Shown here: positions 325 to 34,379 of the stretch, piece by piece | How positions within the stretch are numbered: position 1 is the stretch's first letter | How the letters are laid out: each line of letters starts with the position of its first letter | From: a virus | Length of the DNA stretch: 34,379 nt | IMG/VR virus record: IMGVR_UViG_3300027573_000081 | Coordinates: 1 to 34,379 of that record | Reading direction: 5' to 3' (one strand) | Notes under the pieces: model-generated | Database searches by the model: none | The model's input: only the letters and a program-made list of their open reading frames with translations | What the model was told of the DNA's origin: nothing | Position numbers and translations under genes: made by a program

Positions 325-325
325 G

Positions 326-1093: not shown

Positions 1094-1102
1094 GGTTGTC
1101 TC

Positions 1103-1375: not shown

Positions 1376-1385
1376 GTCGGACTCC

Positions 1386-1637: not shown

Positions 1638-1742
1638 AGAGCCTCACATGCGAGTGATGCGCGCTGAGTCTGCATGTCGTCAGCCGGGCCTGTCGCAGCG
1701 CGAGTGGGGTTGAATTCCCGGGGGCAGTCGTAGTCTGCCATG
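1638..1742. other. short noncoding gap between capsid terminator and next structural genes
   Basis: About 105 bases separate the terminator from the next leftward gene. I see no convincing -35/-10 pair, tRNA or repeat. A reading frame starting at 1741 on the minus strand overlaps the 83-aa gene in another frame and is more likely a shadow. Confidence 0.4.
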
Positions 1743-1769
1743 AAAAGAGGCCCCGCGGGGCCTCTTTTT
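1743..1769. terminator. bidirectional intrinsic terminator after the major capsid gene
   Basis: A perfect 12-bp inverted repeat (AAAAGAGGCCCC, GC loop, GGGGCCTCTTTT) has A-tracts on one side and T-tracts on the other, so it can terminate in both directions. On the minus strand it lies about 20 bases past the stop of the major capsid gene, where it would cap the abundant capsid message. Confidence 0.9.
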
Positions 1770-1789
1770 CGTGCAGCTTCGGACGCAGC

Positions 1790-2722: not shown

Positions 2723-2752
2723 TTCGTTTGCTCCTTGTTGCTGACGGCTGGG

Positions 2753-3358
2753 TCAGATACCGACAGCGTTGAGGTAGCTGTGATGACCCGGGTTGAACTT
2801 CACGAGCACGTCGGCGAACAGGTCGCCGACGGGCGAGACGAGCGCCACGACGCGAAGGGCTGCGTTCGTCGCGACCACCGTCGATTCCAACGCCGACGTG
2901 GAGTTGCCCGTCGTCGTGCTGCCGGTGCTGGTGGACTGCACCGCCGCGAGGAAGGTGTTCGCACCGATCATCGCCTGCAGCGCCGCGCCATCCATCTGCC
3001 CTTGGAAGAGCACGTCGGGATCGCAGACCACCTTGGCCTTGATCTTCGTGCCCGTGGGGGCGACGTAGCTGGCCGGGTAGTACTGCGAGAAGATGAGCTG
3101 GCCCTGCGCATTGACGAACTCGCAGCCGACGAAGACACCGATGGTGCCCGCCGGGAACGCATTCGTGGTGCCGTCGGCGCCAGTGGCCGTCATCAGGATG
3201 ATGTAGCCGTTGGTGTCGAGCGTGACGATCGAACCGTTGTAGATGTTCGTCGCGATGCCTGCGGGGTTGATCTGAAACTCGCTGACGGCGCCCGCATAGG
3301 GCAGGCCGTCCATACGCTTGACGGGGCGGAGCCCGTACGGGGTTGCCGTTGCTGACAT
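2753..3358 (-). CDS. capsid-associated (decoration-like) structural protein
   Basis: This is a 201-aa protein starting at ATG 3358 behind AAGGAAC. It begins MSATATPYGLRPVKRMDG, the A-x-P-[YF]-GLRPV opening typical of a phage structural protein commonly found next to the capsid gene. It is rich in Gly, Thr, Ala and Val, with segments such as NGSIVTLDTNGYI, GVFVGCEFVNAQGQ and GTKIKAKVVCDPD that look like beta strands. A Ser/Thr/Gly linker (STSTGSTTTGNSTS) divides the N-terminal beta region from a C-terminal part. Placement directly upstream of the capsid gene supports a head decoration or cement role. A second capsid-type protein is the alternative. Confidence 0.72.
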   Translation of the reverse strand: MSATATPYGLRPVKRMDGLPYAGAVSEFQINPAGIATNIYNGSIVTLDTNGYIILMTATGADGTTNAFPAGTIGVFVGCEFVNAQGQLIFSQYYPASYVAPTGTKIKAKVVCDPDVLFQGQMDGAALQAMIGANTFLAAVQSTSTGSTTTGNSTSALESTVVATNAALRVVALVSPVGDLFADVLVKFNPGHHSYLNAVGI

Positions 3359-3367
3359 GGTTGTTCC

Positions 3368-3841
3368 TTAAGTTCCGTTGCCGAAAGACTGGCCGCGGGT
3401 CGTCTTGCTCTTGCGTTGGACGAACAGCGGCATCCGGGGATCGTTGTTGCGCATGAGAGCCGCGTCCACCGACTGCATCTGCTTGCGGGCCTGCTCGGCG
3501 AAGTACGCTTGACGCGCAACCACCTTGGCCGTGGGCATCTTGCAGAGCATCAGACCACCGATCTCGACGTTGCCCGCGGCGTTGCCCGGCAGTTCGAGTT
3601 CGGGGTGATCCACCGCCTTGACCGGAACCCAGCCCTCGCGAAGCCTCTTGCTCACGTTGGTCGGATCGGCCACCCCCAGAACGTGCGTGGCCACCCAGTG
3701 AAAGGTGAACCCCGCCTCGGGATTGGGGACAGGCAGCGTGCTCGGGGGCACGTAGGACTCTTCACGAACTTCTTCAGCGCGCGTCTCGGTTTCGCGCGGT
3801 TGACGAGGTGTTGCGGTTGCGGGTGTGGACGGGTTGCTCAT
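3368..3841 (-). CDS. conserved phage virion-operon protein (157 aa)
   Basis: The ATG at 3841 overlaps the stop of the scaffold-like gene (ATGA), so the two are translationally coupled. The first 40 residues are polar and Pro/Glu-rich, hence probably disordered. The central part contains HWVATHVLGVADPTNV, REGWVPVKAVDHPEL and VEIGGLMLCKMP. The C-terminal helix carries ARKQMQSVDAALMRNNDPRMP. The pattern EGW-PV ... G-x-VEIGGL-L-KMP ... Q-x(n)-DP is one I recognise as a conserved hypothetical in phages with this module order, without an assigned function. A head-assembly or virion role is inferred from position. Confidence 0.78.
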   Translation of the reverse strand: MSNPSTPATATPRQPRETETRAEEVREESYVPPSTLPVPNPEAGFTFHWVATHVLGVADPTNVSKRLREGWVPVKAVDHPELELPGNAAGNVEIGGLMLCKMPTAKVVARQAYFAEQARKQMQSVDAALMRNNDPRMPLFVQRKSKTTRGQSFGNGT

Positions 3842-4818
3842 TTCTGCTCCAGACGCACAACTTCCTGTGCGTATTGCTGCGGGGTGAGGCCGAACTTCTT
3901 CGCCAACGCGAGCTGCGTCTGCGTGAGCTTGACCTTGGTGACGCCTGCGACGGTGCGCGTAGCCGGAGCTACGGGACTCGTGCGCTGCGTTGTGCGCTGC
4001 GTGGAGCGTTTGTCGTCGTCACCGGTGGGTGCGGCCCCGAAGAAATCGGGAAACACCTCGCGAAGCCGGCCATCGACCTTTTCGTAGTACTCGTCCGAGC
4101 GAGGATCAACGCCCGACTTCACCAGCTTCTGGTGGAAGCCCAGCGCGAAGCTGGTCATGTCCTCGTTCCCCTCCGAACCGAACCACTGGTTTCGTGCCTG
4201 CCAGCGCAGTGTCTTCTGGTCTACCGGTTCGTCGGGGTTGCTTACTGCCGGCAGTTGTACCTCAGTTTCTGGTGCCTGTACAGCCCGCGGCCGGTACCGC
4301 TCGATTTCCCTGAGTTGAATCTTCGCTTCGAGCAGCTTCTCGTTCGCCGCCATCTCAGCGTCGGGATCGAACGCCTCCTTGGCCGCTTTCAGCTCGATGC
4401 GCGCGGCCGCGAGCGCCGCCTCGGCGTTGGCCTTCGACGCGGCGACGAGGTGCGTCTCGCCATCGACCGTGCGCTTCTGCAGCTCGCGGTTCTGGTTGAG
4501 GAGCGCCTGCGCTGCGCGTGTCGCCTCGTCGCGCTCGCGCTCTGCCTTCTCGCGCGAGCGACGCTCATCGTGCCGCGCGTGCGTCAGCTCCGAGAACCGA
4601 GCCTTGACGCCAGCCGAGTAGGTGGCCAGCTCGTCATCGGTCGGGTCCTTGACCTCGCGGCCGAGCGGCTTGCGACCGCGGTCCTTCTCGGGCGTGTCAT
4701 CGACGATCTCGATGTCGTCGAGGTCGGGGTCCTTGTCGTGGCCGTTGGCCTTCGACTCGATCTTGCCGCCATCGGCGGCGCCGTCGAGCGTCACTTCTTC
4801 ATCATCGGGGTCTGCCAT
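3838..4818 (-). CDS. scaffolding-like capsid assembly protein
   Basis: I choose ATG 4818 because GAGGAG lies six bases upstream, giving 326 aa; an in-frame ATG two codons earlier overlaps that site. The N-terminus is very acidic (MADPDDEEVTLDG, then DPDLDDIEIVDD). The centre (about residues 70-165) is a long charged heptad-like helix with many Ala, Glu, Arg and Lys, predicted coiled coil. Next is a Pro/Val linker, and the C-terminus is a short basic helical segment (VTKVKLTQTQLALAKKFGL followed by TPQQYAQEV). This acidic N-terminus, coiled coil and basic C-terminal hook is the usual architecture of phage scaffolding proteins, and the gene lies between portal and capsid genes. No protease gene is visible in the window. 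Confidence 0.75.
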   Translation of the reverse strand: MADPDDEEVTLDGAADGGKIESKANGHDKDPDLDDIEIVDDTPEKDRGRKPLGREVKDPTDDELATYSAGVKARFSELTHARHDERRSREKAERERDEATRAAQALLNQNRELQKRTVDGETHLVAASKANAEAALAAARIELKAAKEAFDPDAEMAANEKLLEAKIQLREIERYRPRAVQAPETEVQLPAVSNPDEPVDQKTLRWQARNQWFGSEGNEDMTSFALGFHQKLVKSGVDPRSDEYYEKVDGRLREVFPDFFGAAPTGDDDKRSTQRTTQRTSPVAPATRTVAGVTKVKLTQTQLALAKKFGLTPQQYAQEVVRLEQK

Positions 4819-4828
4819 GTTCATCTCC

Positions 4829-5248
4829 TCAGGCTTGCACGCGGAGAATGCCGCGAGGGTCATCGACGACAGCTTCCACTTGGTCGTCGTTCAAGATGCG
4901 GAACTCCTGCCCAAAAATCTTGAAGCGGGTTCCGGCATAGGTTCTCACCACGATGAAGTCGCCCTTCTTACACCACGGCCCGCTCGGGAAGCGCGCCTTG
5001 TCGCTGTAGGCATCGGGGCCGAGGTCGAGCACGAAGAGGATGGTCGTTGCCGCCTCCTCGTCCGCCATCGTCTTCGCGGCCTTCACGAGGATCGACTCCT
5101 CGAACGACTCCTTGGCCTTCGGGATCGCGCAGAGGATGTGGTAGCCCGCAGGCTTGGGCAGCATTCGCGATGCGGGCTCAGGCGTCTCGCCTGCAAGGTG
5201 TTTCGGCAGTACCAATCCGGGGTCAGGTGTCAGAATCGTCGCGGTCAT
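4829..5248 (-). CDS. GroES-like co-chaperonin (Cpn10 family)
   Basis: The most sensible start is ATG 5248 (139 aa), overlapping the end of the previous gene by 26 bases; upstream in-frame residues look like shadow translation. After a 30-residue extension, the chain follows the Cpn10 order. KPAGYHILCAIPKAKE corresponds to the first strand. A polar loop with FEESILVKAAKTMADEEAA (about residues 46-65) corresponds to the mobile loop that docks to GroEL. Then come ILFVLDLGPDAY, CKKGDFIVVRTYAG and GQEFRILNDDQVEAVV, matching the strand, dome and C-terminal strand signature. Phage GroES homologues (T4 gp31 is the classic case) pair with host GroEL to fold capsid proteins. Its place between portal and capsid genes fits that role. 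No ribosome binding site is evident, so coupling to the upstream gene is likely. Confidence 0.75.
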   Translation of the reverse strand: MTATILTPDPGLVLPKHLAGETPEPASRMLPKPAGYHILCAIPKAKESFEESILVKAAKTMADEEAATTILFVLDLGPDAYSDKARFPSGPWCKKGDFIVVRTYAGTRFKIFGQEFRILNDDQVEAVVDDPRGILRVQA

Positions 5249-5435
5249 CGAGGTGGTCCAGCAGGGCTTTGATGCGTTGCTCGGCGATGCGCAGCCCAGA
5301 GAGCACACCGACGAGGTTTTGATAAGCGGGATAGTCCACGGGTGCTCCGCGCACAAGCGCATCGACACGACCGTTCAGCTCCATCTGAACCTGCTTCAGC
5401 AGGTCATCGACATCCCGAGGAGCGTCGCCTTTCAT
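5223..5435 (-). CDS. small helical protein between portal and co-chaperonin (70 aa)
   Basis: ATG 5435 overlaps the portal stop (ATGA), so translation is coupled. The product is a short, charged, predicted all-helical protein: VDDLLKQVQMELNGRVDAL, then YQNLVGVLSGLRIAEQRIKALLDHL and an Asp-rich tail. The G-x-LSGLR-AE-x(2)-I-x-LL pattern is typical of tiny conserved proteins found next to portal genes in tailed phages. No function is assigned to them. Overlap with the co-chaperonin start at its 3' end suggests a tightly coupled set. Confidence 0.78.
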   Translation of the reverse strand: MKGDAPRDVDDLLKQVQMELNGRVDALVRGAPVDYPAYQNLVGVLSGLRIAEQRIKALLDHLDDRDDSDT

Positions 5436-8065
5436 TGCGGCATGCCCTCGTCAGGCACGAGCGGCTGCGCCTCGGGCACTGCGGGCTGCGGCTCCGGCTC
5501 GGGCACCTGCGGTGCCGGACCCGCTGCCTCTGCCTGATCGTCCGAGGGGTCCTCGGTCTTGCTCAAGCCGATCTCGTTGCTGTCGTGCTCCGCTGCAAGC
5601 CGATCCACGTCGGCCTGCGCGTTCGCGCGGTCCTGCGCCAGCAGCTCCTGATCCTGCGCGCGGCCCATCATGCCGACCTGCAGCGCCTTGACCTCGATCT
5701 GCTGCTCGCCCAGCTCGCCGGCCTGCACCACCTTGTCGCGGGCGAGGTCGATCTTGTCGGCCTTGTCGGCAGCCTCGATGCTGACCTTCTTCTCGGCCAG
5801 CGCGCTCTTGTCCTCCAAGTCCGCGGCCTTCACCTTCAGCTCGTTCTCCTTGAGCGTCAGCTCGCGATCGCGCTGCTCCAGCGCACGCTGTGCGAGCTGC
5901 ATCTGCGGGTCCTGCGCGGCCTGCTGCGCGGCTTGGGCGGCGGCTTGCTGCGCGTGCTCCTGCGCGACCTGTTGACCGGCGGTGGCCATCGCCTGCGCGA
6001 GCGCCTGCGACTGCGCCTCGTCCATCGGTGCGGCCGGGTCCGGCAGCGGCTGGCCCATCGCCGTCTGCATCTGCGCACGGTACTGGTAGGCCATGTGCTC
6101 GGCGATGTGCGCCTGCATCGCGCCCATCATCATGGGCGCCTGCGGATTCTGACCAAGGCTCTGCATCACGATCGGGTCCTGCATGAAGGCTTGGTGGACC
6201 TTCAGGTGCGCGTCGTGATCCTGCTGCACGAACGCCTTGATGGGCTTGGCCATCAGCACGTTCATGTTCTCGGTCACGGGGTCGGCGGGGACCGCCTCGG
6301 GCTTCAGCGGCACGAGCTTCGCGGCGTTCTTGATGCCGAGCACTTCGAGCATGCCCCGATGCAGCTCCGCGAGGTCGTAGACCTGCGGAGCGGTCGAGGA
6401 GAGCTGGATCGCGGCTTGGTACTGCACCACGCGCTGGCTCATCGTCGCAGCGCTCGGATCGCTGACCGGGATGATGTCCACCATCGCGAAGTCGGCCTGC
6501 TTCGACCCCGGCTGGTTGTCGGTGGTCTGGTAGCTGTAGTTGTCGTCACCCGAGTCACGGATGACCTCCTTCAACAGCTTGAACTCGTGCTTGAGAGAGT
6601 TGTGGGTCCGCGCCTGCACCGCGCTCATGACCTTGAGCTGCCGTTCGAGGAGAGCGAGCGTGGTCCCGACCGGCGCCTGCGCGCTCATGTCGCTGATCTT
6701 CATGTCGGCCGTGCCGGGTATGCGCCGGCCGTCCTCGATGATCTTGTCGAGCAGGGCTGCCAGCGTGGCATCCGCGCCCTTGTACGGCAGCGGCAGGAGG
6801 TTGTCGCGCAGCGTACCCGAGAGCACGTCCACGTCGCGCCATTCGCCGGGGCTGATGGGCGTGTCGTCGCCCTTGATGCGCAGCCCCTTCGACTTCAGGC
6901 CACCCGGCAGGTTCGCGAGCGTGCCCGCGTCGATGAGCATGCGAATGATGGAGGTTGCACTCTTCGCGTACCCGCCGATCAGGTGGAAGAGGCCGTAGCC
7001 ATAGGGTCCGAACCCCGGCACGTAGTCGTACTGGACGAAGTGCTGGCGCCGCATGTACAGCGGGTCGTCCTCGTTCCAGTTCCGCCGGATCGACAGCATG
7101 TCGCCGCCGCGCAGCTTGGTCACGACGTAGGGGCGGAAGGTGTCGTCGCCCTCCATCGCCGGGAACGAGAGGCTGACCTGCACCTCGTAGAGCATGAACG
7201 ACTCGTCGGTGATGTCGCTGAAGCCAGTCTGGTCGTCCTTTGCCTCTTTTATTTCATCCTTGATCTTGTAGGGTGTGCCGAGCTGCACCTCGGCGTAGAA
7301 GCCCGCGGCCATCAACGCCTCAAGCTCCTGCTCCGTCTTCCGCATGACGTGCGTCACACGCTCGGCGGAGTAGATGTTCGATGCGCTATACGGCATCACG
7401 ATGTCCTCGGCCGGCACGAAGATCGATGCCTGCCGCTTCCACCGCGGGTCCTCGTAGACCTTCTTGAACGCGCAGCCGACCGGAGAGAGGTTCCACAGCA
7501 TCTTCTCGTGCTCGCTGCGGTACTCGATCATCTTCTCGGTGAGCTGGTAGTTCATCTCGGCCTTCACCCGGGCCGCTGCGTCCTTCTTCGGTTGTGTCTC
7601 CTCGCCGATGATCTTGGTGTTGACGGGCCCGGCTGCCGGGAACGTCTCCATGATCGTCTCGGACTGGAAGCGGACCACCGCCTCGGTGATCATGGGGTGC
7701 GTCACCCCGCAGGCGCCCGACCACGGCTCGGTGCGCTCCTCGTACTTGAGCCCGAGGAGCTTCAGCCCTTCCCGGTACGTCTGCTCCCAGTCGTCACGCG
7801 AGCGGCGGTCCTCGTCCACCCAGTGGTCGATGTCGTGGGAGAGGGTGGAGAGCACGCGCTCGTCGGCCACGTCGAGCAGGTTGTCGCCGAAGGCGAGCGG
7901 TACCGCGGCCGCAGCGGCTGCAAGGGCGTCGTCGTTCGGGTCATCGCTCTCTCCGTCGGGAACGATCTCGATCTCGATGTCGCCGAGCGGATCGTTCGCC
8001 GCGCCGGCAGGAGCGAGCGCGCCGAGCCCCATCGGAGCCGGTGCAAGGGTCTTGGCAACGGGCAT
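5432..8065 (-). CDS. portal protein
   Basis: This 877-aa protein starts at ATG 8065 behind a near-perfect AGGAGG, 17 bases after the large terminase stop. After an acidic, Ala-rich N-terminus (about residues 1-80), the core includes SRDDWEQTYREGLKLLGL, a WSGACGVTHPMITEAVVRF segment and PAAGPVNTKIIG. This set is typical of large portal proteins of podovirus-like phages, which form the dodecameric DNA entry ring at the capsid vertex. From about residue 685 to 830 there is a long Gln/Ala- then Glu/Lys-rich coiled coil, and the last 40 residues are Pro/Glu-rich. Such a C-terminal helical extension resembles the barrel of P22-type portals. Size, order (TerS-TerL-portal) and the conserved core make the call strong. 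Confidence 0.88.
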   Translation of the reverse strand: MPVAKTLAPAPMGLGALAPAGAANDPLGDIEIEIVPDGESDDPNDDALAAAAAAVPLAFGDNLLDVADERVLSTLSHDIDHWVDEDRRSRDDWEQTYREGLKLLGLKYEERTEPWSGACGVTHPMITEAVVRFQSETIMETFPAAGPVNTKIIGEETQPKKDAAARVKAEMNYQLTEKMIEYRSEHEKMLWNLSPVGCAFKKVYEDPRWKRQASIFVPAEDIVMPYSASNIYSAERVTHVMRKTEQELEALMAAGFYAEVQLGTPYKIKDEIKEAKDDQTGFSDITDESFMLYEVQVSLSFPAMEGDDTFRPYVVTKLRGGDMLSIRRNWNEDDPLYMRRQHFVQYDYVPGFGPYGYGLFHLIGGYAKSATSIIRMLIDAGTLANLPGGLKSKGLRIKGDDTPISPGEWRDVDVLSGTLRDNLLPLPYKGADATLAALLDKIIEDGRRIPGTADMKISDMSAQAPVGTTLALLERQLKVMSAVQARTHNSLKHEFKLLKEVIRDSGDDNYSYQTTDNQPGSKQADFAMVDIIPVSDPSAATMSQRVVQYQAAIQLSSTAPQVYDLAELHRGMLEVLGIKNAAKLVPLKPEAVPADPVTENMNVLMAKPIKAFVQQDHDAHLKVHQAFMQDPIVMQSLGQNPQAPMMMGAMQAHIAEHMAYQYRAQMQTAMGQPLPDPAAPMDEAQSQALAQAMATAGQQVAQEHAQQAAAQAAQQAAQDPQMQLAQRALEQRDRELTLKENELKVKAADLEDKSALAEKKVSIEAADKADKIDLARDKVVQAGELGEQQIEVKALQVGMMGRAQDQELLAQDRANAQADVDRLAAEHDSNEIGLSKTEDPSDDQAEAAGPAPQVPEPEPQPAVPEAQPLVPDEGMPQ

Positions 8066-11713: not shown

Positions 11714-11734
11714 AGTGAGGCTTAGCCCCACTCC

Positions 11735-11752
11735 GGTTGACAGTTGTCAACC
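11735..11752. repeat. dispersed dyad copy 3 (perfect, extended)
   Basis: GGTTGACAGTTGTCAACC is a perfect dyad. Flanking CC and GG extend the arms to 10 bp (11733-11754). It ends 22 bases before the start codon at 11775. Confidence 0.92.
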
Positions 11753-11774
11753 GGTCCTTCTCTTGGAGATGTTC

Positions 11775-19305: not shown

Positions 19306-19324
19306 ATTCAGATTGACCAACCCG

Positions 19325-19342
19325 GGTTGACAGGTGTCAACC
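19325..19342. repeat. dispersed dyad copy 8 (perfect)
   Basis: GGTTGACAGGTGTCAACC is a perfect dyad, extended by a G/C pair outside (19324-19343). It ends 19 bases before the start at 19362. Confidence 0.93.
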
Positions 19343-19361
19343 CTTTTCAAGGAGAGAGTAG

Positions 19362-25777: not shown

Positions 25778-26902
25778 ATGAAGCTCACACTCAACCACAA
25801 GCAGATCGCAGAACTCATCAAGGCCGTCGGCGCCGATCGAACGGTGCTCGTGCAAGGCGAGGCCGGCACGGGCAAGACCACGCTGCTGTACGCGTTGGCG
25901 AAAGACCCGCACTTCGCCAACTACCACGTCGTTGCGCCGATCGACTGCACGCAGTTGTCGGACGGCTCGATCTGGGTGCCGGACATCGACCGTGAGGCCG
26001 GCGTCTCGCGCGAGCTGCCGAACGAGCGCTTCGGCATCAGCAAGGGCAACCACCACGGGGTTGACGGGAGTCAACCCATCCTGCTGTGCTTCGACGAGAT
26101 CGCGAAGGCGCGTCAGTACATCAAGGACGCGATCGCGCCGCTGCTGTACGAGCACCGCAGCGGCGACTACCGCATGCCCAAGGGCAGCGTGGTGTTCGCG
26201 TGCACGAACCTCGGCGCCGAAGGGCTGGGCGACACAATGCAGGGACACCTGCGCGACCGCATCATCGACGTGACGCTGCGCAAGCCGACCGCCGAGGAGT
26301 GGACGGAGAACTTCGCGATGCACCACGACCTGCACCCGGCGATCCTCGCCTGCGTGCAGGAGTACCCGCAGGTGTTCGAGTCGTTCACCGACTACGAGGC
26401 CGACGGTCCGAAGGCCGGGCGCGATCTGGCGCGCGACAACCCGTACATCTTCAACCCGAGGGCGACGCAGGACAAATGGGCAACACCCCGGAGCCTCCAT
26501 GCGGCGAGCGACATCCTCCACAAGGGAGGAGCACTCGACAACGACACGATCACGGCGGCGCTCAACGGCACCATCGGCCGCGCATACACCGCGCTGCTGA
26601 TGGCATACGTGCGCTTCGGCCAGTCGCTGCCGGCGTTCAGCGTGATCCTCGCTGACCCGGCGGGCACGCCCGTGCCGGTCAATCCCGGCGCCAAGGTGAT
26701 GCTGGCCTTCCGCCTGATCCAGCAGGTGAAGGAGCGGCAGGAAGCCGAGGCGGTGAGCCAGTACATGGCGCGCTTCCCCGGCGAGATGAAGCTGCTGTTC
26801 GCGAGCAACGTGTCCAACAACACCAAGAAGATGGGCCTGTTCTCGCGGTCGGCGACCTTCACCAAGGAGCTGGCCAAGAGCCTCAAGGTTCTCAACGCTT
26901 AA
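25778..26902 (+). CDS. MoxR-like AAA+ ATPase
   Basis: ATG 25778 follows GAAAGAAG. The 374-aa chain has Walker A GEAGTGKT at 27-34, Walker B ILLCFDE at about 101-107, and a sensor-1 segment VVFACTNLG near 145. Arg-containing GHLRDRIIDVTLRKPTAEEW (about 160) is typical of MoxR/AAA_5 family proteins. These ATPases work with VWA-domain partners, and a VWA protein lies directly downstream, so they probably form a remodelling or maturation complex. The substrate is unknown. A dyad copy lies inside the gene just before the Walker B codons (GVDGSQP). The C-terminal third is helical (lid) and ends with FTKELAKSLKVLNA. Confidence 0.88.
   Translation: MKLTLNHKQIAELIKAVGADRTVLVQGEAGTGKTTLLYALAKDPHFANYHVVAPIDCTQLSDGSIWVPDIDREAGVSRELPNERFGISKGNHHGVDGSQPILLCFDEIAKARQYIKDAIAPLLYEHRSGDYRMPKGSVVFACTNLGAEGLGDTMQGHLRDRIIDVTLRKPTAEEWTENFAMHHDLHPAILACVQEYPQVFESFTDYEADGPKAGRDLARDNPYIFNPRATQDKWATPRSLHAASDILHKGGALDNDTITAALNGTIGRAYTALLMAYVRFGQSLPAFSVILADPAGTPVPVNPGAKVMLAFRLIQQVKERQEAEAVSQYMARFPGEMKLLFASNVSNNTKKMGLFSRSATFTKELAKSLKVLNA
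26059..26076. repeat. dispersed dyad copy 10 (inside the AAA+ gene)
   Basis: GGTTGACGGGAGTCAACC keeps both 7-base arms within coding sequence, about 280 bases into the ATPase gene. There is no start codon close downstream. Confidence 0.85.
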
Positions 26903-26911
26903 GGAGTCTTC

Positions 26912-28126
26912 ATGACCACCAACTACGACGGGCTCAATGCGCGGGAGCGCATCGCCCGCATTCACATCGACCTGATGCAGGACCCCGAGTTCTCGCGCAT
27001 CGGGCCGGTGACGCAGATCGGCGACGTGCACATCAAAGACATCCCTACCGCACAGACGAACGGGCTTGATGTGTGGTACAGCGAGGCGTGGACGCTGAAG
27101 CTCAGTCGGGGCCAACTCCGCTACGTTGTGGCGCACGAGCAGTTGCACAAGCTGCTCATGCACTGCACGCTGTACAACGCCGCGTTCAAGAAGCACCCGC
27201 AGGAATCCGCGCAAGCGGTGGACTACGTGGTCAACCTCGTCGTCGAGGACATGGACAAGAAGCGGGGCTTCGTCGAACGACCGACGGACTTCCCGCCGCT
27301 GATCGACGAGAAGTACCGGGACTGGTCCTGCATGGAGGTGTTGCAGGACTTGATCAACAACGGCGACGACGGCACGGGCGGCGGTGGCAAGGGCACCGGC
27401 AAGGGCGGCACCGCACCTCCGATGGACGAGCACATCCAGCGCGAGCCCGGCGACGGCGACGCCGCGAAGGCGAAGGAGGAAGAGCAGGCGCTGGAGGACG
27501 CGCATGTGCAGGGCGAGATCACCAGTGCCCGGCTGCGTGGCACGAGCGCAGGCGGCGCATCGCTCAAGGGCTTCGAGAAGACCCAGACCGAGTGGCGCGA
27601 TCCGCTGCGCCAGTTCATGGTCGAGGCGATGGAGGGCGACGAGATGTCGCGCTGGTGCCCGCCCAACAAGCTGTTCCGTCCGCTGGGCATCATGCTGCCC
27701 TCGCACTTCGCGGAGGCAGCGGGCGGGCTCGTGGTGGCGTGCGACACGTCGGGCTCGATGCGGGCGTACTACGCCCGCGTGTTCGGCGAGATCGGGCGCG
27801 TGGCCGAGCAGGTGCAGCCGCAGTGGATCATCGTGATCTGGTGGGACAGCAAGGTGCAGTCGGTGCAACAGTTCGTACCGGCTGACTATCCGACGCTGGC
27901 CACGAAGCTCAATGCCAAGGGCGGCGGGGGCACCATCGTGTCGTGCGTGGCGCAGTACATGGCCAAGGCCAAGCTCAAGCCGAAGGCCACGATCATCCTC
28001 ACGGACGGCGAGATCGAGTCGCAGTACGAGTGCCCGCCCGGCCCGCTGCTGTGGGGCGTGGTCGGCAACGCGCGGTTCCGTCCGCTGAAAGGCAAGCTGC
28101 TGCGCATCGGAAAGGAGACGCTGTGA
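26912..28126 (+). CDS. metallopeptidase-like plus VWA domain protein (DUF2201 type), partner of the AAA+ ATPase
   Basis: ATG 26912 follows AAGGAG nine bases after the ATPase stop. The 404-aa product has an N-terminal metallopeptidase-like domain with HEQLH (HExxH) at 75-79, another His at 84, and AVDYVVNLVVED at about 102-113, the D-x(2)-[IV]N pattern typical of DUF2201. A Gly/Lys-rich linker (about 152-170) follows. The C-terminal VWA-like domain has MIDAS motif DTSGS at 278-282, GGGGTIVS and LTDGEIES. Related proteins pair with MoxR-like ATPases in phages and bacteria. The likely role is substrate recruitment, possibly with proteolysis, by the AAA+ complex. The target is unknown. Confidence 0.86.
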   Translation: MTTNYDGLNARERIARIHIDLMQDPEFSRIGPVTQIGDVHIKDIPTAQTNGLDVWYSEAWTLKLSRGQLRYVVAHEQLHKLLMHCTLYNAAFKKHPQESAQAVDYVVNLVVEDMDKKRGFVERPTDFPPLIDEKYRDWSCMEVLQDLINNGDDGTGGGGKGTGKGGTAPPMDEHIQREPGDGDAAKAKEEEQALEDAHVQGEITSARLRGTSAGGASLKGFEKTQTEWRDPLRQFMVEAMEGDEMSRWCPPNKLFRPLGIMLPSHFAEAAGGLVVACDTSGSMRAYYARVFGEIGRVAEQVQPQWIIVIWWDSKVQSVQQFVPADYPTLATKLNAKGGGGTIVSCVAQYMAKAKLKPKATIILTDGEIESQYECPPGPLLWGVVGNARFRPLKGKLLRIGKETL

Positions 28127-28464
28127 CCCAGCTCGATGCGCGTGGTGCACGGACGGTGGCGGCGATGCACCCGCTCATGCCCGTGCACCACGCCAACGGT
28201 GAGTTGCTTGAGGGTACGTGGGTCGGTCACGCGCTGGACGAGTACCGCGTCGTCAACGGCACGTTCTGTGGCCCGCACTACCTGATCCAGCTCGGCTCCA
28301 TCCTCGACCCGGGCGACCCGCAGGCGCGTGTGTTCCGCGTGAAATTCATCATGCACTACCCGCTGGAGAAGATGACCGGTAGCACCGAGGAGCTGGAGCA
28401 GGCCAACCGTGCGGCACGCGCCATGATCGGCATGCTCAACCTGAGACGAAAGGAGTTCGCATGA
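28123..28464 (+). CDS. unrecognised protein, paralogue A (113 aa, GTG start)
   Basis: GTG 28123 overlaps the VWA stop (GTGA) and follows AAAGGAG. The chain includes ELLEGTWVGHALDEYRVVNG, then FCGPHYLIQLGSILDPGD and a C-terminal AARAMIGMLNLRRKEFA. The downstream gene repeats this plan ([LD]-G-x-W-x-G-x-AL-x(3)-RV, HY-[LI]QLG, then MLNLRR). The two are thus tandem paralogues. Coupling to the VWA gene suggests work in the same complex. No family name is recognised. Confidence 0.78.
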   Translation: MTQLDARGARTVAAMHPLMPVHHANGELLEGTWVGHALDEYRVVNGTFCGPHYLIQLGSILDPGDPQARVFRVKFIMHYPLEKMTGSTEELEQANRAARAMIGMLNLRRKEFA

Positions 28465-28991
28465 GCGACAAGAAGCTGACCGCCACGCAGGTCATGGATC
28501 AGAAGCGAGCGACTGAGCTGGCGCTGCGCAGCAACCAGCAGGGTGTCATTCCGCCAAAGGCAATGCGCGCGGCGCAACTTCCGCGCATGGCGCAGCCGCT
28601 GTCGTCGGAAGCGATCGCTGATCAGCAGCGACAGGACTTCCGCGAGGCGCAGCCGCACGTCGTCGGCAGCGTCACGGAGCTGAAGCACCTCATCCCGATA
28701 CGCGTGGCCACGCAGCGCGTGCTCGACGGCAAGTGGTCGGGCCGTGCGCTGCACGCGCATCGGGTGCTGCCCAGCGTGTTCGGCGGCAAGCACTACATCC
28801 TGCAGCTCGGGTACATGGAGGAGATCGGCATGCAGGATGACGCCGAGAAGATCGCCACGTTCCGCCTCGTCTTCGTCGTCAACCTGCCCGTGGATGCGAA
28901 GGCCGATCTCGACGACATGCTTCTGAAAGCGGACGCCTCGAACACGGCGGAAGCCATGATGCACATGCTCAACCTGAGGAGGATTCCCTGA
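28461..28991 (+). CDS. unrecognised protein, paralogue B (176 aa)
   Basis: ATG 28461 overlaps the previous stop (ATGA), with AAAGGAG upstream. After a polar N-terminal extension of about 70 residues, the chain carries RVLDGKWSGRALHAHRVLPS, FGGKHYILQLGYMEEIG and a C-terminal AEAMMHMLNLRRIP. These align by eye with paralogue A. Duplication with divergence is the simplest explanation. Its stop is followed by a -10-like TATAAT, which marks the end of this coupled unit. The function is unknown. Confidence 0.8.
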   Translation: MSDKKLTATQVMDQKRATELALRSNQQGVIPPKAMRAAQLPRMAQPLSSEAIADQQRQDFREAQPHVVGSVTELKHLIPIRVATQRVLDGKWSGRALHAHRVLPSVFGGKHYILQLGYMEEIGMQDDAEKIATFRLVFVVNLPVDAKADLDDMLLKADASNTAEAMMHMLNLRRIP

Positions 28992-29003
28992 CCCAGACTG
29001 ATG

Positions 29004-29009
29004 TATAAT
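29004..29009 (+). promoter_or_regulatory. candidate -10 element TATAAT
   Basis: A perfect TATAAT lies 34 bases upstream of the ATG at 29043, in one of few short noncoding gaps. No good TTGACA stands 16-18 bases upstream (GGATTC is there), so the -35 is weak or supplied by another factor. Confidence 0.45.
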
Positions 29010-29042
29010 TCCACACTCCCACCTACCAACCTGAAAGATGTT

Positions 29043-29930
29043 ATGAACAACCATCTAAACCTGAATTCCTGCGGCATCCTCGTGACGCTCGCCATCTCCC
29101 AGTGGACCGCGCGCAAGCTGGACCGCGGCGTGTCCGATGAGGTCGAGCAGAGCAAGGGCGCTAAGTCCAAGGGCGCCGCCCGCGTCAACAAGAACCTGCT
29201 CGCCGGCCGGCCCGAGCTGGAAGAGATCGCGCAGATCGCGACGAAGGCCCGCAACTACGTGTACGACAACACCTTCCCGTGGACCGACAGCGGGCAACGA
29301 CTGCTGCCCACGCTCAAGCTGGTCGAGTTCGACAAGACTGTGCGTGGGTACATGGCCGAGTTCAACGCCAAGGTGGACGGCTTCATCAGCATCTACCCTT
29401 CGCTGATCACGGCGCAGGCGATGGCCCTCGGCGACATGTTCAAGCGCGACGACTTCCCGTCGGCCTCCGAGATCGCCGGCAAGTTCTCCATCGGCATGGA
29501 CATCGAGCCGGTGCCGACGGCCGGCGACTTCCGCGTGGACGTGGGCAACGAGGCGCTGGAGGAGCTGCAGAAGAGCCTCTCCAACACCAATGCGAAGCGG
29601 GAGGCGGCGATGCTGGCCGACATCAGCAAGCGCTTCGGCGAGCATCTGGCGCGCATGTCCGACCGGCTGACCTCCGAGACGGACGCCAAGACGGGGGACC
29701 CCAAGCAGAAGCGCTTCCATGACACGCTGGTGTCGAGCGCCTTCGAGCTGTGCTCGCTGGTGAAATCCCTGCCGGCGTTGGCCGGGCACGACATCGACAG
29801 GCTGGCCACGGCGCTGGAGAAGGCGCTGGACGGCACCACGGCGCAGGTCTTGCGTGACGACTTCAGCAAGCGGGAGGACGTGCGCAAGGCGGTGAACAAG
29901 CTGCGCGACCAGTTCGACTTGTCAGCCTGA
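29043..29930 (+). CDS. conserved helical phage protein next to the MoxR/VWA block (295 aa)
   Basis: I set the start at ATG 29043, after GAAAGATG; an earlier in-frame ATG at 29001 lacks a site and overlaps the -10-like element. The product has GILVTLAISQWTARKLDRGV near the N-terminus, a basic stretch (KGAKSKGAARVNKNLLAG), a Tyr/Trp segment (ARNYVYDNTFPWTDSGQRLL), and a long helical C-terminal half. The L-V-x-L-x-I-x-x-W-x-AR-K-L opening and its location beside AAA+ and VWA genes recall the phage DUF3150 family, which also accompanies such genes. I offer that only as a weak match. A substrate or regulator of the ATPase is possible. Confidence 0.78.
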   Translation: MNNHLNLNSCGILVTLAISQWTARKLDRGVSDEVEQSKGAKSKGAARVNKNLLAGRPELEEIAQIATKARNYVYDNTFPWTDSGQRLLPTLKLVEFDKTVRGYMAEFNAKVDGFISIYPSLITAQAMALGDMFKRDDFPSASEIAGKFSIGMDIEPVPTAGDFRVDVGNEALEELQKSLSNTNAKREAAMLADISKRFGEHLARMSDRLTSETDAKTGDPKQKRFHDTLVSSAFELCSLVKSLPALAGHDIDRLATALEKALDGTTAQVLRDDFSKREDVRKAVNKLRDQFDLSA

Positions 29931-29945
29931 CGGGCGAGGTGCACC

Positions 29946-30173
29946 ATGCAGAAGTGGCACCGAGAGCTGGTGCACCGCCTTCGGGCGGTCGGCATCAGCG
30001 TCTCCGAGGTGAAGCAGGGCAGCAAGTCCACCCGGATACGTTGCAGCAAGGACGGAAATGAAACACTGTACTTTGCGTCCACCAGTGCCTCAGACTATCG
30101 GGCGATGGAGAACGCCGTGAAGGACATCACACGCGACCTAAGGCAGAAGGAGGAACATGGAACGCACCATTGA
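29946..30173 (+). CDS. HicA-like small protein (75 aa)
   Basis: ATG 29946 follows CGAGGTG. The product reads KWHRELVHRLRAVGISVSEV, then STRIRCSKDGNETLYFASTS and SDYRAMENAVKDITRDLRQK. This helix-strand-strand-helix order with S-x-S-D-x-RA-x-x-N-x-x-x-D-x-x-R is typical of small phage proteins with the double-stranded-RNA-binding-like HicA fold. HicA toxins usually have a His on the strand; here that position is not clearly His, and no HicB antitoxin follows. An RNA-binding role other than toxin is therefore as likely. It overlaps the VRR-NUC gene start by 17 bases. Confidence 0.72.
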   Translation: MQKWHRELVHRLRAVGISVSEVKQGSKSTRIRCSKDGNETLYFASTSASDYRAMENAVKDITRDLRQKEEHGTHH

Positions 30174-30552
30174 AACCCCGGTGAAGGAGCAGATCAGGAA
30201 CGCACTCAATGGCCGGGGGGTGTACTTCAGGATGCCTCCTGCCAACGGCTACGGCAAGGCAGGCGACTTCGACTTCGTGTGCTGCGTCCGTGGCCAGTTT
30301 CTCGGTATCGAAGCGAAGCGTGACGACAAGGAGGAACCGACGACGCTTCAGCATGACAACGCAGACAAGGCACGGCTGGCTGGTGCCGTGGTGCTGCTGA
30401 TCCACAAGGGCAACGTAGGGCTCGTGACGCAGACGGTGGACGCCCTGCACGCGCGCATCAAGCCGCCTAGCTACTGGCCCGAGCGGCGGCTGCTCGTGCC
30501 GGAGGACATCACCCCGCCGCTGCTGCGGCGGAAGCGAAGGGACAACCTATGA
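30157..30552 (+). CDS. VRR-NUC domain nuclease
   Basis: ATG 30157 follows GGAGG inside the end of the preceding gene. The 131-aa chain has the VRR-NUC signature: E6-TPVKEQI at the N-terminus, NGYGKAGDFDF with D37 near 36-40, FLGIEAKRDD with E52-x-K54, and Q65. It continues with AGAVVLLIHKGN, a strand pair seen in the family. These stand-alone phage enzymes belong to the PD-(D/E)XK superfamily and resemble Holliday-junction or branched-DNA nucleases. It lies upstream of the DNA polymerase, so it probably acts in replication or recombination of phage DNA. The C-terminus is basic (RRKRRDNL). All expected catalytic residues look present. Confidence 0.9.
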   Translation: MERTIETPVKEQIRNALNGRGVYFRMPPANGYGKAGDFDFVCCVRGQFLGIEAKRDDKEEPTTLQHDNADKARLAGAVVLLIHKGNVGLVTQTVDALHARIKPPSYWPERRLLVPEDITPPLLRRKRRDNL

Positions 30553-30854
30553 ACGAGATGAACGAACAGGAGCAAGCGGAGTTCGACGACTTCACAGCAC
30601 GCACCAAGCACTTCACCGACTCACAGCGGTACGCGTTGCGCAACTTCATCAGCATCGCCATCGGCATCGTCGATGCGCCGGACAAGCCCGCCGTGCTGCT
30701 GCGCGCGGTCGAGGGCGACGACGGCATGCGGCGCGTGATGGTGCACTGCCTGACGCCGGACCACGACGAGGCGTCGATCATGTTGCAGTACTACATGGAG
30801 GCACGCGCATCGGTCATCAGCGCCGCGATGCAGAGCAACGAACAGAGGCATTGA
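30549..30854 (+). CDS. unrecognised acidic protein (101 aa)
   Basis: ATG 30549 overlaps the VRR-NUC stop (ATGA). The product is helical with an acidic N-terminus (MNEMNEQEQAEFDDFTARTK), a hydrophobic helix (LRNFISIAIGIVDAP) and a C-terminal helix (ASIMLQYYMEARASVISAAM). No metal or catalytic motif is seen. The hydrophobic stretch is short for a membrane helix. A strong terminator follows within 14 bases, so this gene closes the unit before the PEP-CTERM genes. Confidence 0.75.
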   Translation: MNEMNEQEQAEFDDFTARTKHFTDSQRYALRNFISIAIGIVDAPDKPAVLLRAVEGDDGMRRVMVHCLTPDHDEASIMLQYYMEARASVISAAMQSNEQRH

Positions 30855-30867
30855 TCACTGAGGTCCA

Positions 30868-30899
30868 GCCCGAGCACCTCCAGAAAGCTCGGGCATTTT
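30868..30899 (+). terminator. intrinsic terminator before the PEP-CTERM genes
   Basis: GCCCGAGC (30868-30875) pairs with GCTCGGGC (30887-30894) around an 11-base loop and is followed by ATTTT. Only 12 bases separate it from the start codon of the next gene. Confidence 0.85.
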
Positions 30900-30911
30900 C
30901 AGGAGCTTGAA

Positions 30912-31517
30912 ATGAAGAAACTTTTCCTTGCGGCAGCAGCAGCGCTGGCGTTCTTCGCCGGACCTGCGAGCGCGGTCGTCGTCTGCGACAACTGCGTCTA
31001 CATCACGGGCCAGCCGGCGACGAACTTGGGCGAGCACGACCCGTCCATGTTCGACAACAGCACCTTCGGCAACGCCACCACGGGGCAGAACGGGAACTTC
31101 AGCAATACGTGGGTCTTCGACATCAACCCGGCCGGCAACGCAGCGCTCGACGTGATCTTCCTGCCGATCGCGAACATCAGCAACTTCACGGTGCGGCTGT
31201 TCGATGTGGTCAGCTCGACGTGCGGCGGCACGGGCGCTGCCTGCACGGCGCTGACGTTGGGCGGTCTGCTGGCAACGAGCAACACGATCCCCAACTACGC
31301 CTCGGTGCTGGACTTCACCGGGCCGCTCGACGGGACCTACGCCTTCGAGGTCAGCGGCACGATCAGCGGCTTGCTCGCCGGTCAGCCCGCGTCCTACGTC
31401 GGCAACCTGCAGACCGTGGCGGCGATCCCCGAGCCGGAGACGTACGCGCTGTTCGGCGCCGGCCTCGCCGCGCTGGCGTTCCTGCGCCGCAAGAAGAAGG
31501 GGGGTGCGCAAGCCTGA
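30912..31517 (+). CDS. PEP-CTERM sorting domain protein A
   Basis: ATG 30912 follows AGGAGC. The 201-aa precursor has a signal peptide (MKKLFLAAAAALAFFAGPAS, cleavage expected after residue 21, ASA). Its secreted body includes GNFSNTWVFDINPAGNAALD, which resembles the G-x-F-x-D-x-[FW] strand of FxDxF-type PEP-CTERM proteins, and CGGTGAAC. The C-terminal sorting signal reads IPEPETY (PEP at 173-175), a hydrophobic helix (ALFGAGLAALAFL) and a basic tail (RRKKK). In exosortase-bearing Gram-negative bacteria this signal directs processing and surface or matrix delivery. No exosortase is encoded in this window, so the host would have to supply it. Such a protein in a phage replication region is unusual; a host-derived accessory gene is the likely source. 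Confidence 0.92.
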   Translation: MKKLFLAAAAALAFFAGPASAVVVCDNCVYITGQPATNLGEHDPSMFDNSTFGNATTGQNGNFSNTWVFDINPAGNAALDVIFLPIANISNFTVRLFDVVSSTCGGTGAACTALTLGGLLATSNTIPNYASVLDFTGPLDGTYAFEVSGTISGLLAGQPASYVGNLQTVAAIPEPETYALFGAGLAALAFLRRKKKGGAQA

Positions 31518-31537
31518 GCCTTGCACCTCGCCACTTC

Positions 31538-31561
31538 ACCGCCGCCGAGGGCGGCGGTTTT
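31538..31561 (+). terminator. intrinsic terminator after PEP-CTERM gene A
   Basis: ACCGCCGCC (31538-31546) pairs perfectly with GGCGGCGGT (31550-31558) around GAG, followed by a short T-run. The next start codon is 24 bases further on. Confidence 0.85.
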
Positions 31562-31584
31562 CTACTCTTACAGGAATCAACGTC

Positions 31585-32247
31585 ATGAAGAAATTCTTCC
31601 TCGCGATCGCCACGGCGCTCGCACTCATCCATATACCCGCGCAAGCGGTGGACATCGGCTTCACCAACGAGTTCAGCGGTGGCACCGACTGCGCCGTTGC
31701 GGCCACGGGGTGCTCGACCCTCACGGTGACTTCGTTCGTTGGCGGGGTCCACTTCGAGCTGCAAGGCACGATGGTTCCGGGCGAGTTCGTCCGCGAGCTG
31801 TCGGGCAACTACAACGGCGGTCCGCTCACCATCTCCAACGTGACGGGCAACACGGAGACGTTCCTGGGCTTCGAGTTCGCCAGCAACGCCTTCAAGGCAG
31901 ACGGTGATGGGTTCTTCGACTGGATCATCCATCTGGACAACGCCCCGCCCGGCAACCGGTTCAACGGCACGGACACGCTGTCGTGGGACTTCCTCGGCGC
32001 CACGTTGTCGCAGTTCAACAGCCTGAGCGTGAACGGACCGGAAGGCAAGAACGGCTTCCTGTTCGCCACTCACGCGCAAGGGCTGGCCAACGGCGGCAGC
32101 GGCTGGTTCAACGGCACGGTCCCGCCCGGAGGCACCCCCTTCGACGTGACGCCGGTCCCTGAGCCCGAGACGTACGCGCTGTTCGCAGCCGGCCTTGCCG
32201 CGCTGGCCTACATGCAGCGTCGTCGCAAGAAGCAAGAGCAAGCCTAA
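31585..32247 (+). CDS. PEP-CTERM sorting domain protein B
   Basis: I choose ATG 31585 because it opens a typical signal peptide (MKKFFLAIATALALIHIPAQ, cleavage expected after residue 21, AQA); a longer frame starting upstream would bury this and cross the terminator. The 220-aa precursor body contains WDFLGATLSQFNSLSVNGPE and FLFATHAQGLANGGSGWFNG. This [AT]H-x-QG-x-x-x-G-x-SGW pattern is one I associate with PEP-CTERM family proteins. The C-terminus has VPEPETY (PEP at 192-194), a hydrophobic helix (ALFAAGLAALAYM) and a basic tail (QRRRKK). Signal and sorting regions closely match protein A, but the bodies differ. The two are best seen as related modules with a shared address and divergent cargo. 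Confidence 0.92.
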   Translation: MKKFFLAIATALALIHIPAQAVDIGFTNEFSGGTDCAVAATGCSTLTVTSFVGGVHFELQGTMVPGEFVRELSGNYNGGPLTISNVTGNTETFLGFEFASNAFKADGDGFFDWIIHLDNAPPGNRFNGTDTLSWDFLGATLSQFNSLSVNGPEGKNGFLFATHAQGLANGGSGWFNGTVPPGGTPFDVTPVPEPETYALFAAGLAALAYMQRRRKKQEQA

Positions 32248-32257
32248 GACTTGCCCC

Positions 32258-32287
32258 GCCCCCGGCGCAACGCCGGGGGCCCCTTTC
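32258..32287 (+). terminator. probable terminator after PEP-CTERM gene B
   Basis: GCCCCCGGCG (32258-32267) pairs with CGCCGGGGGC (32271-32280) around CAA. The T-tract (CCCCTTT) is poor, so termination may be partial and permit read-through to the polymerase gene, whose start is 18 bases beyond the stem. Confidence 0.6.
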
Positions 32288-32297
32288 GGGAGCACCA

Positions 32298-34301
32298 ATG
32301 CCACGTCCCTTTGACCGCATCATGGTCATCGACTTCGAGTCTGCGTGGGGCCGCGCAGTCCAACTCGGTTTCTCTTGTCAGACTATGGAGGAGTACCTCC
32401 GCGATCCACGCTTCAAGGCGTGGGGCCTATCGTGGTCATTCATCGACCTGAAGACCAACGCATGCCAGCCCGTGTGGGTGCGACGCTCCGGGCTCAAGAC
32501 ATTCTTCGCCGCGTTCGACTGGACGCGCATCGCAGTGGTCGCACAGAACGCAGCGTTCGATGTGTCGATCATGTTCTGGCACTACGGTGTCCACCCCGCA
32601 TTCATCCTCGATACCTTGTCGATGGGGCGTGCCCTCCACGGCGTCGAGGCAGGCAACAGTCTCAAGACGCTGGCCGAGCGCTACGAGCTGCCGCGCAAGA
32701 TGGACGGGCTCGCGTCGTCCGAGAACATCCTCGACGAGCTGCCCTTCCTCGTGGAGCAGGAGCTGTCCACGTACTGCAAGCACGATAGCTGGCTGTGTGC
32801 CGAGCTGCTGATCCGTATGCTGCCCTCGTTCCCGATCTCCGAGCTGCAGCTCATCGACATGACGGTGAAGATGTACACCAGACCCGTCCTCGAATTCGAC
32901 ACGCCGATGCTGGAGACGGCGCTGAAGGAGGACGAGGACGCCCTTGCCAAGGCGCTAGGGCGCGTCAATCGCACCGAGTCAGAGCTGGCCAGCAACGACA
33001 CGTTCGCCGACGTGCTGCGCCTGCTGGGCGTCGATCCGCCGATGAAACCCTCGCCGTCGGGCAAGGGCAAGGCCGAGGGCAAGATGATCTACGCCTTCGC
33101 CAAGAGCGACGCGCTCTTCCAGCAGATGCAGAACGGCGACAACGAAGACGTTGCCCTGCTCTGCGAGGCACGTCTCCGTGTGAAGTCCACGCAAGCCCGC
33201 ACGCGTGCCCAGCGGTTCATCGACATCTCGCACCGCGGCCCGCTGCCGGTGCCGCTCAACTACTGGGGCGCAGGGCCGGGCCGCTGGCAGGCATCGAAGG
33301 GCAGCAACGTCAACCTGCAGAACATGAAGCGCGGCAGCGCGCTGCGCAAGTCGATCAAGGCGCCCAACGGCTACGTGGTGGTCGTCGGCGACCTGATGCA
33401 GATCGAGCCGCGGGTGCTGGCCGAGCTGAGCGGCTACACGGACTTGCAAGGCATCTTCCGCTCCGGGCAGGACGCGTACGCGCAGTTCGGCGCCGGCATG
33501 TTCGGCGTGCCGGGCATGACGAAAGATACCCATCCTGTCCTTCGGCAATCGGCCAAGAGCGCGCTGCTGGGCGCTGGGTACATGCTAGGCTGGCCGAGCT
33601 TCGCCGGGCAGCTTCTTGCCGGCTTCCTCGGCGCTCCACCGAAGCGCTACACGGTGGCCGACGCCAAGCAGATGGGCATCACTGCGCAGCAGGTGATGAA
33701 GTTCACAGGCGACAAGTGGTGCATGGAGCGTGCTGCGCTCGTGCCGCACGCGTGCACCGACGATGAGCTGCTGATCCACTGCATCGTGGCGAAGGAGATC
33801 ATCGATCGCTACCGCGCGACGGCCGAGCCCGTGGTGAAGTTCTGGGGCTTCCTCAAGCAGATGCTGGAGGAGTGCCTGCATGGTGGCGCAACGCACACCT
33901 ACAAGTGCCTGACGTTCGAGAAGGGCGCGATCCTCATGCCCAACGGCATGCGCATCCTGTACCCCGAGCTGGCGAAGGGACGCGACGAGCGCGGCCGCAC
34001 TGCGTACACCTATCGCAAGGGCAAGAAGATCGAGTACATCCACCCCGGCACGCTGTGCAACAACGTGACGCAGGGGCTGGCTCGCATCGTGATGAGTGAT
34101 GGAATGCTTCGCGTCGCGAAGCGGCTGCCCGTGGTCCTCACGGTGCACGATGAACTGGCGGCACTCGCACGCCAGCAAGACGCTGCGAAGGCGAAGGTCT
34201 GGGTTCGCCAGCAGATGATCGTGGACCCGGTGTACCTGCCGGGCATCCCGCTAGACGCCGATGTCGGCGCACACCAACGCTATGGAGAAGCAAAACAATG
34301 A
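32298..34301 (+). CDS. family A DNA polymerase with 3'-5' exonuclease domain
   Basis: ATG 32298 follows GGGAG. The 667-aa enzyme has a complete proofreading domain: Exo I VIDFES (D12, E14), Exo II QNAAFD with the expected N and D, and Exo III YCKHD. The polymerase domain shows motif A GDLMQIEPRVLAEL (Asp near 365), where family A usually has D-Y-S-Q-IE-L-R. It also has motif B RQSAKSALLGAGYMLGW (from about 415), with R-x(3)-K but an altered N-F-G part, and motif C LTVHDELAA near 617. No 5'-3' exonuclease domain is present, as is usual in phages. It replicates phage DNA. The variant motifs A and B place it in a divergent phage lineage and could influence nucleotide selection. It is coupled to the next gene by ATGA. 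Confidence 0.93.
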   Translation: MPRPFDRIMVIDFESAWGRAVQLGFSCQTMEEYLRDPRFKAWGLSWSFIDLKTNACQPVWVRRSGLKTFFAAFDWTRIAVVAQNAAFDVSIMFWHYGVHPAFILDTLSMGRALHGVEAGNSLKTLAERYELPRKMDGLASSENILDELPFLVEQELSTYCKHDSWLCAELLIRMLPSFPISELQLIDMTVKMYTRPVLEFDTPMLETALKEDEDALAKALGRVNRTESELASNDTFADVLRLLGVDPPMKPSPSGKGKAEGKMIYAFAKSDALFQQMQNGDNEDVALLCEARLRVKSTQARTRAQRFIDISHRGPLPVPLNYWGAGPGRWQASKGSNVNLQNMKRGSALRKSIKAPNGYVVVVGDLMQIEPRVLAELSGYTDLQGIFRSGQDAYAQFGAGMFGVPGMTKDTHPVLRQSAKSALLGAGYMLGWPSFAGQLLAGFLGAPPKRYTVADAKQMGITAQQVMKFTGDKWCMERAALVPHACTDDELLIHCIVAKEIIDRYRATAEPVVKFWGFLKQMLEECLHGGATHTYKCLTFEKGAILMPNGMRILYPELAKGRDERGRTAYTYRKGKKIEYIHPGTLCNNVTQGLARIVMSDGMLRVAKRLPVVLTVHDELAALARQQDAAKAKVWVRQQMIVDPVYLPGIPLDADVGAHQRYGEAKQ

Positions 34302-34379
34302 CACATCCGATACCAACCTCGTTCCGCTTGCGCCGCCGCAAGTGGACTGTCCGGCGGCTGACCAGCAGCGTGAGTGGCA
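34298..34379 (+). CDS. start of an unrecognised gene (partial, cut at right edge)
   Basis: ATG 34298 overlaps the polymerase stop (ATGA) with GGAGAAG upstream. Twenty-seven codons are visible: MTHPIPTSFRLRRRKWTVRR at the start, basic and Arg-rich. Translational coupling to the polymerase suggests a replication-associated product. Too little is visible for a family call. Confidence 0.55.
   Translation, partial: MTHPIPTSFRLRRRKWTVRRLTSSVSG

Follow-up and report, generated by a model that had tools for sequence, protein, structure and literature searches.

Phage-borne PEP-CTERM proteins with a shared leader stem-loop as a candidate accessory display cassette

Two adjacent genes encoding PEP-CTERM proteins, P1 and P2, are present among the replication genes of a phage genome segment of 34,379 bases (an IMG/VR virus record, hereafter the window), and related genes, preceded by the same leader stem-loop, recur in unrelated phages. 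We consider it probable, at about 0.6, that P1 and P2 constitute an exchangeable accessory display cassette, that a putative host exosortase sorts the two proteins, and that the surface of the infected cell is thereby changed. As related gene sets and the same control element occur in unrelated viruses, it is probable that such viruses remodel the surface of the cells they infect. The recurrence, the shared leader, the fixed slot and the swapping of protein bodies are new beyond the preliminary description of this DNA.

Two PEP-CTERM genes in a phage replication block

The window encodes a large terminase subunit (TerL), a portal protein, a major head protein and DNA polymerase A. Neither tRNA genes nor an integrase was seen, and the phage is probably tailed and lytic. 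By polymerase, the nearest annotated phages are Pseudomonas phages of the KPP25 type (~30%). The features around the pair are as follows.

30157..30552, + strand: endonuclease (neighbour; phrog_93 profile, E 2e-7)
30549..30854, + strand: small conserved phage ORF (neighbour; 93% identical in G002)
30868..30894, + strand: leader stem-loop before P1, GCCCGAGC-ACCTCCAGAAA-GCTCGGGC, with an 8-bp stem
30901..30905, + strand: Shine-Dalgarno sequence AGGAG of P1, partly complementary to the leader loop
30912..31517, + strand: P1, FxDxF-family PEP-CTERM protein, 201 aa
31538..31558, + strand: terminator-like stem-loop between P1 and P2, 9 pairs followed by TTTCTACTCT, conserved in G002
31585..32247, + strand: P2, PEP-CTERM protein of the FKADGDGFFDW family, 220 aa
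32258..32280, + strand: G+C-rich stem-loop 3' of P2 and 5' of the DNA polymerase gene, GCCCCCGGC-GCAAC-GCCGGGGGC, conserved in G002
32298..34301, + strand: DNA polymerase A (neighbour)

The natural start codon of P2 is the ATG at 31585; a mechanical list of open reading frames places the start at the GTG at 31504. In the window P2 is preceded by the terminator-like stem-loop and not by the shared leader. Terminator-like stem-loops follow both P1 and P2, and no sigma-70-like promoter was found for the cassette. The preliminary description had placed the pair between a VRR-NUC nuclease and the DNA polymerase. The pair does lie between a phage endonuclease gene (phrog_93) and the polymerase gene, and the name VRR-NUC was not confirmed by Pfam.

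Both proteins begin with MKK[LF]FLA and a predicted Sec signal peptide, clear by eye and ending in an A-x-A-type motif; in their relatives, a crude hydropathy rule pointed to such a signal as well. At their C-termini, VPEPETYAL in P1 and IPEPETYAL in P2 are followed by a hydrophobic helix and a tail of Arg/Lys residues. The scores of P1 and P2 exceeded the cut-offs of both TIGR02595 (25.5 and 22.7 bits, cut-off 16) and PF07589 (27.2 and 28.1 bits, cut-off 20.7), in agreement with the earlier proposal of two adjacent PEP-CTERM proteins with the complete sorting layout. The FxDxF model that had been suggested as a further check (NF038126, cut-off 50 bits) recognized P1 over most of its length (65.8 bits, residues 32-195) and did not recognize P2, whose 37.6 bits came from a match limited to the tail. 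The P2 body corresponds to no named NCBIfam family, the tail alone giving matches. In AlphaFold models (mean pLDDT 73 for P1 and 81 for P2), a body rich in beta strands was framed by one helix at each terminus. Since their PDB matches were weak or generic beta-sandwiches, neither a ligand nor a function was indicated by the fold. Judged from sequence and model, P1 and P2 are beta-rich proteins with PEP-CTERM tails that are predicted to be secreted.

Three related records bear on the location of the pair. The 46-kb record 3300009678_000076 (G001) overlaps the window at 99.98% identity over 6,450 bases and includes the same pair; window positions 27930-34379 correspond to positions 1-6450 of IMGVR_UViG_3300009678_000076, and the two look like parts of a single ~68-kb genome such as that of G002. 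The latter (3300011435_000017, 68 kb), from another sample, carries the pair at the same place with ~88% DNA identity around it. In the third (G003, 54 kb, polymerase 70% identical), a relative of P1 is found elsewhere in the replication block, together with a different PEP-CTERM protein. Between the window and G002, dN/dS was 0.39 for P1 and 0.23 for P2; this purifying selection and the shared placement mark the two as real phage genes. The phage location given in the preliminary description was thus upheld by two other records with the pair at the same place. The objection raised there, a contig chimeric with a chromosome, was ruled out along with contamination by this placement and the purifying selection. 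A tblastn search of 50,697 annotated phage records gave no match to either protein.

Two further observations concern the genome at large. Palindromes of the form TTGAC-N4/5-GTCAA are present in the window at 11733-11754 and 19324-19343 and also 5' of G002_3, G002_81 and G002_83. They lie 13-20 nt upstream of several start codons in this phage group and may represent a recurring operator or promoter element of the phage. At 25778-28126, an AAA+ ATPase adjoins a VWA/putative metallopeptidase protein (DUF2201, PF09967 and PF13203) with a relative in the phage record G022; the label 'HNH endonuclease' given to this family in PHROGs is unsupported by its Pfam domains.

Recurrence, body exchange and origin

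A search of viral contigs identified relatives of P1 and P2, mostly 46-71% identical, in phages of ~40 kb (group B) that have almost no other genes in common with the window and its group (group A). Group B phages encode a portal protein, terminase, major head protein, amidase, helicase and polymerase. Stenotrophomonas phage BUCT555, a cultured relative without P1/P2 genes, has a capsid protein with 66% identity to theirs. The gene order is usually P2-P1, opposite to that in the window, and the slot is located at the end of the replication block, at its head-on junction with the structural block. It contains P2 and P1, P2 alone, a third family (P3), other secreted proteins, or nothing. P3 proteins (273-277 aa) were encoded by 4 of 33 further relatives found by their capsid protein, slot frequencies in group B being indicative only because many contigs are fragments. 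P3 occupied the same slot in all three P3 phages examined and, like P2, is not a member of the FxDxF family (NF038126). The slot was empty in G029; in G034 it held two secreted proteins that lack sorting tails (L202:3779-4441 and L202:4458-5090). Another such protein is encoded in G037 (L205:17362-18111), and G034_4 and G037_47 are alike at their Cys-containing C-terminal ends. In neither group were P1/P2 genes found in the structural block, and some close relatives carrying the structural genes are devoid of them. Presence in some close relatives and absence from others at a fixed slot, the pattern of a moron or accessory cassette, bore out the accessory nature proposed earlier.

Two contigs document the exchange of bodies. 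L229 and L233 are 96.5% identical from the leader to base 35 of the gene; their bodies are unrelated, one being P3 and the other P2, and an identity of 93% returns from the PEP-CTERM tail onward. This pattern indicates that the body is the exchanged part, and the secretion signal and tail the constant ones. That the ends are kept through the swap argues that sorting matters to the phage.

As for origin, P2 relatives among 84,980 species genomes were at most 40% identical and came mostly from Verrucomicrobia and Planctomycetes, with one from Nitrosomonas nitrosa, a search that may miss close relatives in unsampled taxa. In a tree of P2 proteins, those of groups A and B formed one clade (100/100) on a long branch, apart from all bacterial relatives found. 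The P2 proteins of two other records, G021 and G022, grouped with bacterial ones, which suggests separate captures. The phage status of G021 is less sure because its terminase match is weak and the only one; G022 (76 kb) has terminase, tail and head-decoration matches. Two adjacent secreted genes with VPDSG-like tails are present in G022 (L097:18925-19638 and L021:5914-6603), one of them a distant P2 relative. Their scores with the VPDSG-CTERM model (TIGR03778) were 21.2 and 14.5 bits, both below the cut-off of 22, the first closely so. For P1, 399 genomes of the Nitrosomonas order gave weak matches only (best 51 bits), again with the chance that close relatives in unsampled taxa were missed. 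The best FxDxF matches in these genomes are distant from the phage branch, whose members share 55-82% identity with P1.

Of 14 bacterial genomes encoding P2-like proteins, 13 had an exosortase gene, as did 48 of 120 genomes of the Nitrosomonas order, including 24 of the 26 that were FxDxF-positive; FxDxF proteins thus tend to occur together with exosortase. No exosortase gene was found in 16 phage records, in line with the host sorting pathway invoked in the preliminary description, and sorting would therefore depend on the host. A search for the host through prophage relatives gave one distant capsid relative (52%), on a 37-kb contig in one Nitrosomonas-order genome, without PEP-CTERM genes.

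The leader stem-loop

The leader stem-loop is situated 17 nt upstream of the P1 start codon in the window and recurs in both phage groups, 5' of genes of the P1, P2 and P3 families. Among seven different leaders, four of the eight stem pairs had changed on both sides, and 98% of cells in the stem were paired, against 48% or less with the stem slid. The exact pattern CCCAGGCACCTN{1,8}AAGCCTGGG was scanned over 2.9 million viral contigs. All 13 matches were located 19-25 nt upstream of the start of a PEP-CTERM gene, three families being represented; several are near-identical copies, leaving perhaps six independent contexts, and one contig stops soon past a start codon of a gene that opens like P2. 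A stem-loop of the same general kind preceded 13 of 21 PEP-CTERM genes and 99 of 764 others in the phage genomes (odds ratio 10.9, with genes that are partly non-independent). A different stem-loop (GTATGGGTCTTACGGGTCCATAC, CATGTATCTCACGGGTACATG and GCATAGGTCTTCTGGGTCTATGC) recurs 5' of PEP-CTERM genes in G007, G009 and G011 and is perhaps an alternative leader.

Several identities for the element were considered and rejected. A plain terminator was ruled out by the lack of a T-run. PepA, a PEP-CTERM floc protein of Aquincola, is chromosomal and sigma-54 dependent, with the promoter TGGCAC...CTGCTT (PMC9850573). A sigma-54 promoter does not account for the leader: the GG is missing from the window copy, GG-GC spacings range between 10 and 12, and the stem shows covariation. 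A bacterial source was not supported either, a relaxed pattern giving one match in the 399 Nitrosomonas-order genomes, with arms that do not fully pair. Rfam models gave, over 30500-32500, only an HgcC match on the other strand that did not reach the gathering score.

The loop (ACCUC..UAA) is similar to the 16S rRNA 3' end. For the duplex between loop and Shine-Dalgarno sequence, the calculated energy was -7.4 kcal/mol for the window, with p 0.036 relative to shuffled loops, and -8.3 for G008. These values are suggestive of a pseudoknot that might control translation, a hypothesis that may be wrong because the pairing is weak in L040, L052, G030 and G032. Alternatively, the stem-loop may act as a DNA operator.

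Proposed role and its alternatives

Taking into account their position among replication genes, P1 and P2 would probably be made early or in mid-infection. The leader stem-loop, with a loop that could cover the ribosome-binding site, may adjust their translation. Both proteins would be exported through Sec and held in the inner membrane by their tails, from which a putative host exosortase would release them for attachment to the outer surface or to exopolysaccharide. There, the beta-rich bodies would alter what the infected cell displays, and phages would exchange bodies while retaining the secretion and sorting ends. We infer a surface change during infection from the location among replication genes and from work on bacterial PEP-CTERM/exosortase systems. 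The Aquincola protein PepA shifted polysaccharide from the soluble to the cell-bound form and restored floc formation (PMC9850573), and in Nostoc an exosortase is required for biofilm formation and surface adhesion (PMC12188702).

A broader reading, which we hold tentatively and at a little below even odds, is that unrelated phages share a modular cassette consisting of a phage-specific RNA leader that controls translation by an anti-Shine-Dalgarno loop, a signal peptide that stays constant, a beta-sandwich body open to exchange, and a sorting tail, the last maybe fitted to the exosortase type of the host (of the PEP-CTERM kind in groups A and B and VPDSG-like in G022). This cassette would rebuild the host surface during infection through the host exosortase.

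Among known systems, P1 and P2 resemble substrates of the PEP-CTERM/exosortase system (TIGR02595, PF07589, PF09721) in their predicted signal peptide, PEP motif, helix and basic tail. They differ in being encoded by phages that lack an exosortase, and their subfamilies and leader were found here only in viral records. They share a sorting tail and a likely surface or matrix destination with PepA-type floc proteins (NF033554; Aquincola, Zoogloea), but score far below the cut-off of that family. LPXTG surface proteins such as SasX are likewise phage-encoded and anchored by a sorting enzyme of the host. SasX is encoded by staphylococcal prophages and relies on a Gram-positive sortase, whereas the present case would involve a Gram-negative exosortase and a phage in which no integrase was seen. 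The surface proteins and morons of superinfection exclusion, such as Llp of T5, are also accessory envelope proteins acting during infection and encoded in variable slots. To our knowledge, those described are lipoproteins or inner-membrane proteins, none with a PEP-CTERM tail. Superinfection exclusion would be the likeliest benefit: most likely the adsorption of other phages would be stopped, and less likely the matrix would be altered in favour of the phage itself. The coating, matrix change or blocking of competing phages suggested in the preliminary description would all be candidate roles. No earlier report of phage-encoded PEP-CTERM proteins was found in titles and abstracts of the literature covered, which leaves out most subscription papers and preprints; within it, the earlier statement that these proteins have no known phage role stood.

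Alternatively, P1 and P2 could be matrix proteins that bind exopolysaccharide, so that infected cells clump, stay in flocs or disperse and thereby favour the spread of the phage, with no part in superinfection exclusion. The action of PepA is a precedent, and carbohydrate-binding modules are among the weak structural neighbours of P2 (E 0.04 or worse, not significant). Neither structure nor sequence, however, gave a significant match to a polysaccharide binder, and we regard this explanation as unlikely. Still less likely is a role as exosortase decoys, in which excess P1 and P2 would occupy the host enzyme, strip the cell of its own PEP-CTERM proteins and loosen the matrix, the bodies being inert. 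Such decoys would explain why signal peptide and sorting tail are the parts retained during exchange and why several unrelated bodies occupy one slot. On the other hand, the purifying selection on the bodies argues against pure decoys, which would also have no need for the division into separate P1 and P2 families that persists from one phage group to the other.

That P1 and P2 are virion or assembly-linked proteins with an incidental secretion signal and hydrophobic tail is very improbable. The P1 model does weakly match microvirus spike proteins along with other beta-sandwiches, but in both groups the genes stay outside the structural block, are missing from close relatives that carry structural genes, and always encode a predicted signal peptide and a tail recognized by curated PEP-CTERM models. 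We give hardly any credence to their being mere passengers, whether captured host genes without a role or products of chimeric contigs; presence in group B is patchy, but the position recurs in independent records, selection is purifying, and both clade and leader are phage-specific.

Exosortase sorting is widespread among matrix-forming Gram-negative bacteria, and few of its substrates have a known function. If the display cassette is real, phages would be retaining, controlling and swapping such substrates, a sign that the exosortase pathway is worth capturing, and their small proteins would be tractable substrates for exosortase studies. The leader stem-loop would be a new RNA element of phages, tied very specifically to PEP-CTERM genes, and phage surface proteins sorted by the host would extend from the prophages of Gram-positive bacteria to phages of Gram-negative ones.
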